6,484 nt of DNA from B21-G16 sp003644825 [NCBI: Candidatus Zhuqueibacterota bacterium]. GTDB taxonomy: Bacteria; SM23-31; B21-G16. The position numbers were made by a program, and so were the translations under genes. Below, piece after piece: positions 65 through 6,484 of this stretch; position 1 is the stretch's first letter, and each line of letters opens with the position of its first letter. The stretch is from positions 1 through 6,484 of the forward strand of contig QNDJ01000101.1 in assembly GCA_003644825.1 (NCBI GenBank), written 5' to 3'. The notes beneath the pieces were generated by a model that was not told the origin of the DNA, did not search any database, and saw nothing but the letters and a program-made list of their open reading frames with translations.

Positions 65-838
65 ATGAATACATTATTGAGCATTGCAGGTTCAGATGTA
101 AGTTGTGGGGCAGGTATACAGGCTGATTTAAAAACAGCATCATATTTTGGAATTTATTGTTTGACCGTGGTAACTGCTATTACTGCTCAGAATTCCCTTG
201 GTGTTGAGAATGTTTTCCCATTGCAACCAATTCAGGTTAAAAATCAGCTTGAAGTCATTTTAAAAGATATAAGACCGAATGTCGTTAAGATAGGGATGGT
301 GTCCAGTGATGAAATACTTTATGTAATAAGTAAAGTAATAAATGATTTTAAACTTGACACGATCATTTGTGACCCGATAATTTTCTCAAAAAATGGTGTT
401 TCTCTTTTAGATGAAAATGGTGTTGATTTTCTTGTTAATGAATTTCTTAAAGATGTTTATTTGCTTTTACCAAATATAAATGAATCACATCTATTGACAG
501 GTGTAGATGTGGATGATGAATTATCTATGAAAGAAGCATGTAGAATTCTTTATCAAAAAGGGGCAAAAAATGTTCTAATTAAAGGTGGTCACTTAAATGG
601 CATTCCTATGGATATACTTTATAATGGAGAGAATTTTTATAAATTTGAGACCGAGAGAGTTGAAGGAGTAACGGTTCATGGAACAGGATGTATATTTTCT
701 TCAGCTATTGCCTCTGGACTTGCAAAGGGAGATGATTTGGTTTCCTCAATTCGAACAGCAAAAAAGTTTATTTATAAAGGAATTCTAAATTCGTTTAAGG
801 TTGGAAAAGGTTATAGTTTTTTTAATCATTTTATTTAG
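65..838 (+). CDS. thiD: Hydroxymethylpyrimidine / phosphomethylpyrimidine kinase (ThiD)
   Basis: A cytoplasmic ribokinase-fold enzyme of 257 residues, the usual length. The family phosphorylates 4-amino-5-hydroxymethyl-2-methylpyrimidine (HMP) and then HMP phosphate, giving the pyrimidine diphosphate that thiamin phosphate synthase joins to the thiazole. Visible marks are the N-terminal IAGSD...GAGIQADLKT substrate loop (residues 7-24), TAITAQN with Gln42 (37-43), KIGM with Met78, a DP pair in the DPVM-type position, PNxxE, KGGH, and the C-terminal anion-hole motif HGTGC (205-209) with Cys209. Gln42 and Met78 appear to correspond to the HMP-contacting Gln44 and Met80 of the Salmonella enzyme, which favours ThiD over a pyridoxal kinase, although the two activities can overlap. 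The substrate loop reads SDVSCGAG where SDSSGGAG is usual. The ATG at 65 is chosen because the conserved core begins only six codons later. No Shine-Dalgarno sequence precedes it. No other thiamin gene is in the window. Confidence 0.93.
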   Translation: MNTLLSIAGSDVSCGAGIQADLKTASYFGIYCLTVVTAITAQNSLGVENVFPLQPIQVKNQLEVILKDIRPNVVKIGMVSSDEILYVISKVINDFKLDTIICDPIIFSKNGVSLLDENGVDFLVNEFLKDVYLLLPNINESHLLTGVDVDDELSMKEACRILYQKGAKNVLIKGGHLNGIPMDILYNGENFYKFETERVEGVTVHGTGCIFSSAIASGLAKGDDLVSSIRTAKKFIYKGILNSFKVGKGYSFFNHFI

Positions 839-847
839 AATTTTGTT

Positions 848-3472
848 ATGACAAAAACACCATTAATGGAACAATATTTCAGGATAAAAAGCCTTCATAA
901 AGAGGCTATATTATTTTTCAGGATGGGTGATTTTTATGAGATGTTTTACGATGATGCCAGGATTGCTTCAAAAGTTCTTGGATTAACATTAACGACCCGT
1001 TCTCATGGAAAAGCAGCAAATGTTCCTCTTGCAGGTTTTCCTCATCACAGCCTGGAGATATATTTGAACAAGATGCTGAAAAGCGGTTATAAGGTTGCAA
1101 TATGTGAGCAGGTTGAGGACCCCAAAAAAGCAAAAGGTATTGTTAAGCGAGCTGTTGTGGAAACAATTTCTCCTGGAACTGCTTTTTCGGATAAGTTGTT
1201 GGATGTAAAGTCTAATAATTATCTTTTTTCTCTCTTTTTTTCTGATGGAGTAGCAGGTTTTTCAGCTGTAGACATTTCGACGGGTGAATTTCTGGTTTCT
1301 GAAGGTATGGAAAATGAAGTTATTGAACAGATTAATATATTTAATCCTTCTGAAATTCTCATTTCAGAATCCCAGGATAATTATTTAAGTGAAAAATTAA
1401 AGGGAAATTTAAATATTTTTAAAACAGTTATTGAAGATTATCCTTTTTCTTATGATTATGCATATAATAGTCTGAAGAATCATTTTAAAACGACTTCTCT
1501 GAAAGGATTTGGTATTGAGGAATTAAGATGTGGAATATCTGCTGCTGGGGGAATTCTGGAATATTTAAAGAAAAGTCAGGTCGAGAATCTTGCTCACATT
1601 AAGAGTATAAAGGTTCATCATATAACTAAATATATGATTCTTGATTCTTCTACAAGAAGAAATCTTGAGTTAATAACTCCTATGAGCAATAGTGTTAATA
1701 AAGAAGGGACGCTCATTTCTATTATTGATAAAACTTTAACTCCAATGGGTGGAAGGAAACTTAAAAAATGGTTACTAACACCCTTGAAAAATATTAAAGA
1801 AATTGAAAAACGCCTGAAAAGTGTTGATGAACTATTTAAAAACAGGAATTCAAGAAAAGAAGTTGGTAAAATACTTTATGAAATTTCGGACATAGAAAGA
1901 ATAATTGCCAAAATAAGCTCTAATAAGGCTAACGCCAGAGATTTAATAGGGTTGAAAAAAAGTCTTATTCAGATTCCTCTTTTAAAGAGAGCTCTGAACC
2001 GGGAAAGAGCTTTTTATACAGGAATTGCTGTCAGGAAATTGAACGATCTGAAAAGAGTGGTAAATGAAATTGATAAAAGTATTGTTGAAAATCCTCCTAC
2101 AGCTATTACTGAAGGGGGTATTATAAAGGAAGGTTATAATAAAGAACTTGATGATTTAAGGAAACTTGCTTATTCTGGGAAAAAGTGGATTAATAACCTT
2201 CAAAATCTTGAAAGGAAAAGAACAGGTATTCCAAGCCTTAAAGTTAGTTATAACAAAGTATTTGGTTATTATATTGAGGTAACGAAACCTCATTTATCCA
2301 AAGTTCCGGAAAATTATATAAGAAAACAGACTCTTGTTAATGCTGAAAGATTTATAACTCCAGAATTAAAAGAGTATGAGGAAAAAGTATTAAATGCTGA
2401 AGAAAAAATTAATTCACTCGAGTATGAGATATTTCAGAGTATCAGAAAAAAAATTATGAAGGAAATTACCTCAATACAGAAAAATGCTGATATAATTTCG
2501 GAGATTGATGTAATAAGAAGTTTTGCTGAAGTATCTGAAGAAAATAATTATGTAAGACCAAAATTAACGAATGAGAGTTTAATTTATATAAAGGATGGAC
2601 GACATCCGGTTGTTGAGAAAATGCTACCGCCGGGTGAACAATTTATACCTAATGACCTTGTTTTAAAGAGGAGAGATGAACAGATACATATTATTACAGG
2701 TCCCAATATGGCAGGGAAATCAACTTTTCTAAGACAGGTTGGATTGATAGTTCTTCTTGCACAAATTGGTTCATTTGTTCCTGCTTCTGAAGCTAAAATA
2801 GGTATTGTAGATAGAATTTTTACAAGAGTAGGTGCTTCTGATAATCTTGCCAGAGGAGAAAGCACTTTTCTTGTAGAGATGAATGAACTGGCAAATATTT
2901 TACATAATGCTACCCCAAAGAGTTTAATACTTCTTGATGAAATAGGAAGAGGCACAAGTACTTTTGATGGTCTTTCTATAGCCTGGGCGACTGCAGAATT
3001 TATTCATAATAATCCTAAAATATCTGCAATGACTCTTTTTGCCACTCATTATCATGAGTTAACTGAACTGGAGAGATTATATTCAGGGATTAAGAATTAT
3101 AATGTTACTGTAAAAGAATGGGGTGATTCCGTGATTTTTTTGAGAAAAATTGAAAGAGGAGGATGTGACCACAGCTATGGAATACAGGTTGCAAGAATGG
3201 CAGGAGTTCCACCAGAAGTTATTGAAAGATCCAAGGAAATTTTATCTAACCTTGAGGCGAACGAATTAACTCCTGACCATTTCCCTAAACTGGCTTTAAA
3301 AAAAAGAAAAGATAGCTATAAGGAAAATCCTTTTCAGATAAATATCTTTACTATGGAGAAAGGTGATTTAGAGAAAGAATTAGAAAAAATTAATCCAGAT
3401 AAACTTACCCCTCTTGAAGCTCTTGAAAAAATATATAAATTAAAAAAAATGTGTGAAGGGGAAAATTCTTGA
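848..3472 (+). CDS. mutS: DNA mismatch repair protein MutS
   Basis: An 874-residue protein, close to the 853 of E. coli MutS. It recognises mispaired or looped bases, then acts as an ATP-switched sliding clamp that recruits MutL. Domain I contains GDFYEMF (residues 27-33), with the Phe29-x-Glu31 pair that wedges into the mismatch. The connector and lever domains follow (about 125-420). The clamp contains the hallmark FGYYIEV stretch at about residue 475. The ATPase domain has Walker A GPNMAGKST (618-626), signature Ser672 in GEST, Walker B LLDE with Asp697-Glu698, and the FATHYHEL switch with His734. Near the C-terminus QINIF (830-834) resembles a beta-clamp binding motif, followed by a TPLEAL helix typical of the MutS tetramerisation tail. 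All key residues are intact and there is no frameshift, so it should be functional. This is MutS1, not MutS2, since there is no Smr domain. It begins 9 bases after thiD without a Shine-Dalgarno sequence, which suggests cotranscription and possibly translational reinitiation. mutL is not nearby. Confidence 0.98.
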   Translation: MTKTPLMEQYFRIKSLHKEAILFFRMGDFYEMFYDDARIASKVLGLTLTTRSHGKAANVPLAGFPHHSLEIYLNKMLKSGYKVAICEQVEDPKKAKGIVKRAVVETISPGTAFSDKLLDVKSNNYLFSLFFSDGVAGFSAVDISTGEFLVSEGMENEVIEQINIFNPSEILISESQDNYLSEKLKGNLNIFKTVIEDYPFSYDYAYNSLKNHFKTTSLKGFGIEELRCGISAAGGILEYLKKSQVENLAHIKSIKVHHITKYMILDSSTRRNLELITPMSNSVNKEGTLISIIDKTLTPMGGRKLKKWLLTPLKNIKEIEKRLKSVDELFKNRNSRKEVGKILYEISDIERIIAKISSNKANARDLIGLKKSLIQIPLLKRALNRERAFYTGIAVRKLNDLKRVVNEIDKSIVENPPTAITEGGIIKEGYNKELDDLRKLAYSGKKWINNLQNLERKRTGIPSLKVSYNKVFGYYIEVTKPHLSKVPENYIRKQTLVNAERFITPELKEYEEKVLNAEEKINSLEYEIFQSIRKKIMKEITSIQKNADIISEIDVIRSFAEVSEENNYVRPKLTNESLIYIKDGRHPVVEKMLPPGEQFIPNDLVLKRRDEQIHIITGPNMAGKSTFLRQVGLIVLLAQIGSFVPASEAKIGIVDRIFTRVGASDNLARGESTFLVEMNELANILHNATPKSLILLDEIGRGTSTFDGLSIAWATAEFIHNNPKISAMTLFATHYHELTELERLYSGIKNYNVTVKEWGDSVIFLRKIERGGCDHSYGIQVARMAGVPPEVIERSKEILSNLEANELTPDHFPKLALKKRKDSYKENPFQINIFTMEKGDLEKELEKINPDKLTPLEALEKIYKLKKMCEGENS

Positions 3473-3851: not shown

Positions 3852-6484
3852 ATGAAGACCAAATATATGATGATCGTAGGGGTCATAATTGTATTATTAG
3901 TGACCTTTTCGTCTTTTACATTTGGGCAGATCACCTGGTACAGTAATGGTCTTGGTTTATCAAATAGATATGCCGGGAAAGTTACCACAGATACTTTACG
4001 TTTTATACTGGGTGAGAACTCAGAATTGACAAAAGACCAGACTCTAACAATAGACCTTTCTGCTTTCCAGATTATTACAAGCGAGGTTACGAATAAGGCT
4101 AATTATGATTTCTCGACTTCTCCTTCAGCATCCTCTTATACAAATTTCAGTATGGATACGAGTGATTTCAGTGTTAGTTATAATTCTACTTTAAAACAGG
4201 TTACATTTACTCTACTGACGGACAATTCATTACTACCCGGTGATTCTACAGTTCTTATAATTAGTAATGTTACTGCAAACCCGGGTAAAAGTTCGGGAAC
4301 AAATGATGTCAGTGTCAGGGTGAAAAGCTCGGACCAACCTGTTTTTTCGAGGTCTGAATATGATGCATTAATTGGAGCCAATGACCAGGTCATTGGGTCA
4401 ATTACATTTGCAGACACAAATGCATCAGTAACAACTTACGTTACTCTTTATGATACAGCAGAAGGTATAGTTCCAAGTGATGGAATTATAAAAGTTTATT
4501 TTCCTTCAGGGTTTGATTTTGTAACCAGTGTGGATACAAGTATGGTAACAGTGAGAGATGATGGAGTTAAGTTATTATTATCTTCTGTGAGCACCAGTGG
4601 TGATACTGTTATCATAAACCTTTCTGCTACCAGTGATATTGAAGATGGTTCAGTAATTCAAATAGACCTGGGAAAATCTTCAAGCCCGATGGTAGTAAAC
4701 CCCACCATTTTTGTAAGTTCATTGAGTTATCCTTCATTGAAATCCTATTCCACAGGATATAATAATGATTTTTATGTTGCTGTTTATGATAGTGACGGAG
4801 ATACAATTTTTGTGGATAAAAGTGGTGGACTCACTTTCAATATTGCAAGTAACTGGTGGGCTGATGATGTTGGTGATGGTGGTGTAAGTTTATCTGACTA
4901 TACGGCTTCAAATCCTACTTCAATGACCTTGAATTTCAAGGTTGGAACAAGGGTTGATTTTGATTCAACCGCAACTACAAGATACGATACTTTTGTAGTA
5001 GATTTAACTGATGGAACAAATAATACCTTTACGGTATCTTCTTCTGAAGCTCAAACCAAAACCAATTATACATTCAGTGTTGGCTTTGATGATACGTCCA
5101 AGTTCGATATTATATATTCAAGTAATCAAATAAAGTTTATTCCAGATAGTGCTGCTGGTGGTTATTTACCAGCTCAAACTTCAATTACCTTAACGATTTC
5201 TTCAAATGTATTAAGAAATAAAGGACAGACTTCTGATGCAGATGTTAGAATCAGAACAAATCATCAGACTGCCTGGGTAACAGATAGGGATGTAACTGCA
5301 ATTGACCCCAATAATGGTGGAGTTATCACTGTAATAGATTTAGCTGATACGAATGCAGGTATGGGTTCTGTTATAGATTCATTGGTATTTGTTGCGAATG
5401 GTCAGATACCATCTGATGGTCAAATTAGAATAAAATTTCCTACAACTTTTACTCTTGCAACTTCTATTGATTGTGTAAGAATAGATACAGGAAATACTTC
5501 CCACTTCTGGGATATAACAACAACAGCAGGATACATTTCAACGGTTTCTCAAGCTGCTGGAACCATTGTTAATAATGAAGTTAGATTAAATTTGAGCTTA
5601 AGTAGCGCAATTAATACAGGAACAACGGTTAAGATTATGCTTGGAGATACAAGTGGAACCGGTGCAGTAGCAAATGGATACGGACATATTTCTACTCCAG
5701 CTTTTACAAATCCGGCTGCAAGTGACTCGGGTGTTTATCCCACTGTAGGAGAAAGAAGTCCATTTGTTGTGGAAACAAGATTTAATGATGGTACACTTAT
5801 TATGAGCGGTAATAACAGTGATGATCCTGTAACGATAGTTACAAATGCGTTTTCAGACTCTCAATTTGTTTTTGTGGATGGTTCAGATATTTATAGCAGA
5901 TCAAGGTATGCAGGTGATAGTACAGGAATAGAGCTGACATTTAAAGTTGGTTCAAGGATAAGAGGAGCAAGAGATACACTCTACCTTGATGTTTCAGATT
6001 TCTTTGTTAATCCACTTGAAGTAACGGATACAAGTAATTATGTATTTACTAAAGGTTCTTCCGGTAATAATGCTGGATATTTCGCTAAAACAGTTGGTTA
6101 TGATGCATCAAATCAAATTATATCATTTTATGGTTCTCCTAATGATACTCTGTATTCCGGTAGAGAAGATTCAACAATTATTCTAAAGATAAAAGCAAAT
6201 GGTAAAGTTGCTGGTGGAACAAGCAACTGGGGTGGTGTATTATCTGCAAAAGGAGCACGAAGTGACCTTTCTGTTAGAATAAAAACAAATCATCAGACAG
6301 GATGGATTACCGTTGATTCTGTTAGAACAATAGTAGCAAATAATAAAGATTCTGCATCTGTAGTTTATATCAGTAGATCTGATAGTTCTGCTGGTGAAAC
6401 TTCTTATGATACTTTATGGGTACATCATAGAGGTGTTCTGGTGCCCGGTTCAAAGATAGCTATTAAATTGGATGCTGGTTTCTC
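3852..6484 (+). CDS. Large exported tandem-repeat protein, function unknown (3' end outside window)
   Basis: An uninterrupted frame of 877 codons with no stop before the window ends. Residues 1-25 form a Sec signal peptide: a Lys-containing start (MKTK), a hydrophobic core (about residues 6-19), and a likely cut after TFG25, before Gln26. The mature part is rich in Ser, Thr, Asp, Gly, Asn and Val, has a single Cys (in IDCVRI), no later membrane segment, and alternating hydrophobic/polar strands as in beta-sandwich surface proteins. It is built from a repeated module. Anchors recur in the same order: F-x-[LV]-G (Phe51, 362, 697), N-Y-x-F (Asn84, 405, 729), V-R-[IV]-[RK] (Val155, 465, 808) and a Pro-Gly turn before a beta strand (Pro208, 520, 865). 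Spacing is about 310 residues, then about 324-345. An Asp-rich DxDxD (313-317) could bind a cation. I do not recognise the family. A surface-layer, adhesin or extracellular-matrix role is inferred from export and repetition only. No catalytic motif is visible. Sorting or anchor signals would be at the unseen C-terminus. Confidence 0.85.
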   Translation, partial: MKTKYMMIVGVIIVLLVTFSSFTFGQITWYSNGLGLSNRYAGKVTTDTLRFILGENSELTKDQTLTIDLSAFQIITSEVTNKANYDFSTSPSASSYTNFSMDTSDFSVSYNSTLKQVTFTLLTDNSLLPGDSTVLIISNVTANPGKSSGTNDVSVRVKSSDQPVFSRSEYDALIGANDQVIGSITFADTNASVTTYVTLYDTAEGIVPSDGIIKVYFPSGFDFVTSVDTSMVTVRDDGVKLLLSSVSTSGDTVIINLSATSDIEDGSVIQIDLGKSSSPMVVNPTIFVSSLSYPSLKSYSTGYNNDFYVAVYDSDGDTIFVDKSGGLTFNIASNWWADDVGDGGVSLSDYTASNPTSMTLNFKVGTRVDFDSTATTRYDTFVVDLTDGTNNTFTVSSSEAQTKTNYTFSVGFDDTSKFDIIYSSNQIKFIPDSAAGGYLPAQTSITLTISSNVLRNKGQTSDADVRIRTNHQTAWVTDRDVTAIDPNNGGVITVIDLADTNAGMGSVIDSLVFVANGQIPSDGQIRIKFPTTFTLATSIDCVRIDTGNTSHFWDITTTAGYISTVSQAAGTIVNNEVRLNLSLSSAINTGTTVKIMLGDTSGTGAVANGYGHISTPAFTNPAASDSGVYPTVGERSPFVVETRFNDGTLIMSGNNSDDPVTIVTNAFSDSQFVFVDGSDIYSRSRYAGDSTGIELTFKVGSRIRGARDTLYLDVSDFFVNPLEVTDTSNYVFTKGSSGNNAGYFAKTVGYDASNQIISFYGSPNDTLYSGREDSTIILKIKANGKVAGGTSNWGGVLSAKGARSDLSVRIKTNHQTGWITVDSVRTIVANNKDSASVVYISRSDSSAGETSYDTLWVHHRGVLVPGSKIAIKLDAGF
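3966..4898 (+). repeat. Protein repeat unit 1 (residues 39-349)
   Basis: First copy of the roughly 310-residue module, beginning at RYAG (39-42) only 13 residues after the predicted signal peptide cut. Anchors: FILG (51-54), NYDF (84-87), VRVK (155-158), VPSDG turn with Pro208 followed by the strand IIKVYFPSGF. The segment after VRVK reads SSDQP, where the other copies have TNHQT. This is the most diverged copy. Unit boundaries are approximate because the repeat is circularly ambiguous. Confidence 0.65.
4899..5903 (+). repeat. Protein repeat unit 2 (residues 350-684)
   Basis: Second copy, about 335 residues. Anchors: FKVG (362-365), NYTF (405-408), VRIRTNHQT (465-473), IPSDG turn with Pro520 followed by IRIKFPTTF. 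The extra length over unit 1 lies mainly between Pro520 and the next FKVG (177 residues against 154), probably as a loop around the DTGNTSHFWD stretch. It contains the protein's only visible cysteine. Confidence 0.65.
5904..6484 (+). repeat. Protein repeat unit 3, cut by window edge (residue 685 onward)
   Basis: Third copy, incomplete. It opens with RYAG (685-688) exactly 12 residues before the Phe of FKVG (697-700), the same distance as in unit 1. It continues through NYVF (729-732), VRIKTNHQT (808-816) and a VPGSK turn (Pro865), with the strand IAIKLDAGF at the edge. Matching anchors at matching spacing are strong evidence of homology among the three copies, and more copies may follow. Confidence 0.65.

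Follow-up and report, generated by a model that had tools for sequence, protein, structure and literature searches.

A predicted giant type IX secretion cargo with a diverged array of paired beta-rich domains in B21-G16 sp003644825

In the MSCRAMM adhesins (SdrD, SdrG, ClfA/B and FnBPA, N2-N3) two successive beta-sandwich domains make up a unit of about 300-350 residues. Enterococcal PrgB, with its Ig-like domains, and streptococcal antigen I/II, with its C-terminal domains, are Gram-positive, sortase-anchored proteins, and the type A cargoes of the type IX secretion system (T9SS) combine an export signal and a large body with a C-terminal sorting domain. The protein described here adds one more case to a known kind of surface protein, and the kind of system is not new. 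In our literature search no paper joined type IX secretion with KSB1 or with a giant repeat protein, no paper joined a sorting domain, the candidate phylum and an adhesin, and MSCRAMM/DEv-IgG papers dealing with type IX secretion were not found among the matches listed.

The window, by which we mean the whole 6,484-nt stretch of contig C101 that was analysed, carries on its plus strand a thiD-like phosphomethylpyrimidine kinase gene (65..838; Pfam Phos_pyr_kin, E 1.2e-76), mutS (848..3472; Pfam MutS_I to MutS_V) and an open frame of 877 codons (3852-6482) that has no stop before the window edge. Its first 26 residues (3852..3929) were read by eye as an N-terminal export signal, with a basic start, a hydrophobic stretch and FGQ, in agreement with the signal peptide of the initial annotation, and they align with similar starts in two related genomes, G001 and G003. 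In G001, G002 and G003 too, mutS adjoins the giant-protein gene or its homologue. Positions 6362-6484 of the window are the end of another contig of the same genome, C9 (L003, minus strand), with an exact overlap of 123 nt, and in C9 the frame runs on for 1885 residues past the 877 in the window until it reaches the stop codon up to which an extension had been suggested. The joined protein is predicted to have 2762 residues (about 298 kDa), the window frame being its front third; on C9 domain 3B is completed, and then come unit 4 (4A and 4B), the core and the T9SS tail. Along the joined protein there are four A-B units (aa 27-326, 327-659, 660-1006 and 1007-1361), two Ig-like stretches, placed by eye, that reach to about aa 1640 and, from about aa 1690, a core of about 1070 residues with CarboxypepD_reg-like and dockerin-like parts and a T9SS type A sorting domain at its end.

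The predicted full-length protein rests on the C101-C9 overlap and on gene order. A single contig of G002 has mutS first and next to it a gene for a 1210-aa homologue of the core; four genes then follow, coding for 1313, 217, 758 and 561 aa, of which the fourth is on the opposite strand. Past the giant gene C9 follows the same order, with genes of 1299 aa (36%), 218 aa (TPR, 45%) and 783 aa (vWA, 44%) and, as the fourth, a 536-aa vWA gene on the opposite strand with 36% identity to its G002 counterpart; all four were matched in G002 by BLAST across most of their length. In G004 (37%) and G005 (38%) as well, a counterpart of the 1299-aa gene comes after the core. The gene order of G002 supports the join; the far ends of C101 and C9 had no overlap with any contig. 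The 1299-aa gene next downstream (L003:4485-8381, minus) encodes Ig-like Big_9 repeats and a T9SS tail of its own, and one of the two vWA-domain proteins (L003:1620-3968, minus, and L003:2-1609, plus) has a weak CsgG/LpoB-like C-terminal part. All three assemblies that bear the array break within the gene (window 6362-6484; L007:1-3; L008:1). At the DNA level repeats are short and scattered. That the assemblies break in the gene despite its diverged DNA repeats is perhaps due to strain variation.

The C-terminus of the C9 part scored 33.9 bits with TIGR04183, the NCBIfam type A sorting domain (cut-off 23); in the same tail FlgD_ig was above its cut-off (E 4.9e-12) and Pfam Por_Secre_tail was below (22.4 vs 27). 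The initial annotation had advised looking for a C-terminal sorting or anchor domain, and this one lies on the adjoining contig; provided that the C101-C9 join is correct, the window frame would belong to a T9SS type A cargo. SprA is encoded in the same genome (contig C42), with 849.4 bits when its frame neighbours are included, against a cut-off of 200 and 0/14 controls, and so is PorU (contig C8), which is partial at a contig edge and scored 564.5 bits against a cut-off of 420, with a signal in 2 of the 14 controls and none of them above the cut-off. Among the six genomes of the phylum SprA was above the cut-off in five and PorU in four, the source genome being included in both counts. When the C9 part was used as query it gave 36 matches in its own genome, mostly T9SS tails among the matches listed, and the giant protein is therefore one of many T9SS cargoes.

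The CarboxypepD_reg-like part of the core had an E of 1.8e-5, under the Pfam cut-off, and a model of the core (1068 aa, 5 sequences) had a pLDDT of 45.2, which is too poor for a fold search. Against the PDB, the core profile matched cellulosomal scaffoldin segments (4wi0_B, E 1.3e-7; 4u3s_B, E 2.6e-7); its matches to dockerin domains (6kge_D, E 0.0037), FlgD and the PorU end were weaker. The scaffoldin and dockerin matches would fit a scaffold in which the dockerin-like segment docks on a cohesin partner in a cellulosome-like complex and the array serves as an arm. We regard this as quite improbable, given that Pfam detected no cohesin or dockerin family at E <= 1 in the giant protein and its four C9 neighbours, and dockerin-like calcium-binding repeats are common in non-cellulosomal proteins. 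Two core stretches that looked cohesin-like by eye were rejected because Pfam gave them no support.

The initial annotation had proposed a giant protein built on a long repeat, in which four anchor motifs recur three times at nearly constant distances, and both the motifs and the spacings were borne out. F-x-[LV]-G is at aa 51, 362 and 697, with one more copy at 408; NYxF is at aa 84, 405 and 729; VR[IV][RK] is at aa 155, 465 and 808; and the Pro turn is PSDG at aa 208 and 520 and PGS at 865. The F-to-V spacing is 104, 103 and 111 and the V-to-P spacing 53, 55 and 57. None of 20000 shuffled sequences had at least three copies each of F-x-[LV]-G, NYxF and VR[IV][RK], a lax test in that the motifs were picked with the sequence already known. 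When 14 segments of the joined protein were compared profile against profile with hhalign (91 pairs, 20% threshold; 1-3 sequences per profile, orthologues included), eight pairs exceeded 20% and every one was A-A or B-B, that is, 8 of the 12 like pairs and 0 of the 79 others, and only one of 196 reversed-sequence controls passed, unit 3 A against its own reverse at 30.6%. These profiles separate two domain types, and the unit therefore consists of a domain A of about 155-175 aa and a domain B of about 145-200 aa, so that the 2762-residue prediction contains a repeat of about 300-350 residues. The borders of the units were placed by eye from the anchor motifs. Domain A of unit 1 (aa 27-180; 3930..4391, plus) matched A of unit 2 (aa 327-488; 4830..5315, plus) at 97.1% (P 5.2e-11) and A of unit 3 (aa 660-833; 5829..6350, plus) at 85.6%, and the latter two matched each other at 97.2%. 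Domain B of unit 1 (aa 181-326; 4392..4829, plus) matched B of unit 2 (aa 489-659; 5316..5828, plus) at 97.2% and B of unit 3 at 94.3%; of this last domain the first part (aa 834 on; 6351..6484, plus), assigned by profile match, is in the window and the remainder is on C9. Unit 4, outside the window, was weaker, with 46.3% for A1-A4, 66.5% for A2-A4 and 84.1% for B1-B4 over 29 columns only, and A3-A4, B2-B3, B2-B4 and B3-B4 were below 20%. Plain self-blastp of the joined protein found nothing off the diagonal up to an E of 1; against the G001 frame blastp gave the orthologous match and an out-of-register one at aa 392-819 (25% identity, E 5.5e-9). The repeat is real and strongly diverged. The A and B profiles match at 45.8%, which may mean that A is a sister of B that has diverged.

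Neither Pfam nor NCBIfam gave a family for the window frame at E <= 10, and a known family spanning the whole unit, a search for which had also been suggested, was rejected as there was none in either. B1 alone had no match in Pfam. Below the curated cut-off of Pfam, B2 matched DUF637 (E 0.048) and the C9 stretch from 3B to 4B matched HECW_N (E 0.024), and PDB sequence searches stayed at chance level, the best E being 0.16 for B and 0.084 (titin) for A. The A-B pair is a module pair outside the families of Pfam and NCBIfam. Among 380 genomes that lie outside the class, six were matched weakly by the B profile (E 7.2e-6 to 2.3e-4), which also hit another T9SS protein in G003 (E 8.9e-5). That protein has 1916 aa (L059:4471-10218, minus); as judged by eye, three B-like modules come after its Ycf48-like BNR repeats. 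A stretch like G-x-I-P-x-x-G-x-I-x-I-x-F-P-x-G-F was seen in L061, L062 and L064 and in looser form in L063 and L065; L066, which is without the F-P motif in the matched stretch and may be a chance match, was omitted from the profile comparison, and for L065 hhalign was run with the first module, the search match having been to the second. Against three sets of these modules B gave 95.6% (44 columns), 92.3% (91) and 88.6% (95), with a maximum of 18.7% in 25 reversed controls, and A gave 6.3, 34.0 and 27.3% against the same sets. Three of the distant B-like modules have Pfam matches solely below the curated cut-off. By profile comparison domain B has a relative in an unnamed module of other secreted proteins, and this module, which occurs in genomes outside the class, may merit a profile of its own. 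The description of the protein as unrecognised, with no named family known for its motif set, stands as far as Pfam and NCBIfam are concerned and is not fully accurate in that the whole protein can be recognised as a putative T9SS cargo and B has kin in an unnamed module.

Structure prediction of one unit, which had likewise been suggested, gave for unit 2 a model from 9 sequences that is mainly beta in both domains (pLDDT 69.8, pTM 0.71), B being less certain and having several low-confidence stretches. Two or three beta-sandwich domains per unit had been expected, and the profile comparison points to two domains. The top Foldseek matches of this model in the PDB were Ig-like domains of adhesins, namely PrgB, Srr1, SdrD/SdrG/FnBPA pairs and antigen I/II, and there were also integrins, transglutaminase 2 and a complement receptor complex. 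The best E was 1.8e-6 (8beg, PrgB) and the others were weaker; the Sdr/Clf/FnBP pairs had E values of 4.1e-6 to 4.6e-4 with a query TM of at most 0.30, for a model with a pLDDT of 69.8, and among the 50 matches listed the query TM-score was 0.15-0.30. In VIA, PrgB had a Z of 9.8 with an rmsd of 10.9 A over 249 residues, the whole-pair rows mostly had an rmsd above 10 A, and domain A alone superposed on ClfB with an rmsd of 3.0 A (125 residues, Z 8.4), where a Z near 8 may mirror a common arrangement. Whole pairs fit poorly, and therefore the matches support, with moderate confidence, an Ig-like domain type and not the arrangement of the pair. No MSCRAMM family was present among the Pfam and PDB sequence matches, and LPxTG was absent from the 2762-aa joined protein.

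Pilin shaft domains were also among the fold matches in VIA, and Ig-like arrays also act as passive spacers. Both are in keeping with the main rival explanation, that the array is a passive stalk or spacer which holds the core or a partner off the cell and does not itself bind, and the distribution of the array bears on it as well. The window frame, used as query, had matches in three genomes out of 60 (the source genome G000, G001 and G003), which is three of six in the class and none of 54 outside it, and the A or B profiles found the array in the same three of the six phylum genomes, which are 63-90% complete. In G002 the core is beside mutS in the same place on one contig, without the array and with the T9SS tail kept. 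G005 has the core and T9SS tail without the array, across two contigs, together with a counterpart of the downstream gene; a mutS match was not found there and a different gene precedes the shorter core gene, which is therefore not tied to mutS. G004 was left unscored for the array, its mutS contig ending 534 nt past mutS with no coding start seen by eye, and its copy of the core is cut at a contig end. G005 shares one family with G001 and G003, and therefore the array was gained or lost either within this one family or repeatedly. That the homologues in G002 and G005 keep the core and tail without the array indicates that it is dispensable for the core, as a passive stalk would be. Against this, conserved stretches (SSDQP) in both domains in the three array-bearing genomes perhaps go beyond what a spacer needs, which is a weak point, and we hold the passive stalk to be a real possibility, though not the favoured one.

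The two relatives without the array also bear on a further alternative, that of a self-assembling surface-layer or sheath protein forming a lattice or filament. The protein is large and acidic (327 acidic vs 185 basic residues), is poor in cysteine (4 Cys) and is beta-rich in the modelled unit, all of which would suit such a role. However, Pfam found neither SLH nor any other S-layer family in the window and C9 parts, and the absence of the array from two relatives and the 36 core matches in the own genome make a single lattice protein less likely. S-layers without SLH exist, and therefore the negative Pfam result for SLH is not an exclusion; on balance we consider a surface layer unlikely. 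The initial annotation had offered a filament, S-layer-like or adhesive role. These roles are putative; the fold matches point towards adhesin or pilin domains, which is not proof of binding.

The reading that we prefer, and that we think likely, is that of a surface protein exported by the T9SS, with an array that projects or binds. The signal peptide would take the protein across the inner membrane and the type A sorting domain would direct it through type IX secretion to the outer surface, with the C-terminal 1070 residues or so as the conserved core. The Ig-like beta-sandwich domains of the four A-B units and the two Ig-like stretches would probably form an elongated arm off the cell, and this arm probably contacts a surface, a neighbouring cell or matrix, in a low-specificity or ligand-specific manner. 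We infer the surface location from the sorting domain and the T9SS machinery, both computed here, for which export to the surface is established for the family; the elongated, projecting shape and adhesion are suggested by the fold type, by the repeat with its domain pairs and by the variable presence of the array, which were computed here too. In this poorly known lineage the presence of the array ahead of a conserved T9SS core varies. A more specific proposal, which we consider rather doubtful, is that the A-B array would be an independently assembled, MSCRAMM-like adhesive unit of two domains that type IX secretion employs, and that its gain or loss as one piece before the conserved core would let relatives alternate between an adhesive and a non-adhesive version of the same surface protein.

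Compared with the known systems, the protein is like a T9SS type A cargo in its export signal (by eye), its large body, its C-terminal sorting domain and the SprA and PorU encoded with it, and it is unlike one in its front array of four A-B units without a Pfam or NCBIfam family. The unnamed module of secreted proteins (L061-L065 and L059) matches domain B, which here alternates with A. The Ig-like domains of PrgB and the C-terminal domains of antigen I/II are among the best fold matches of unit 2; with 10.9 A over the pair the single domains match, but their arrangement does not. With the MSCRAMMs, which are among the Foldseek matches, the protein would share two successive beta-sandwich domains in a unit of similar length, whereas here a T9SS tail takes the place of LPXTG and four pairs stand in a row.
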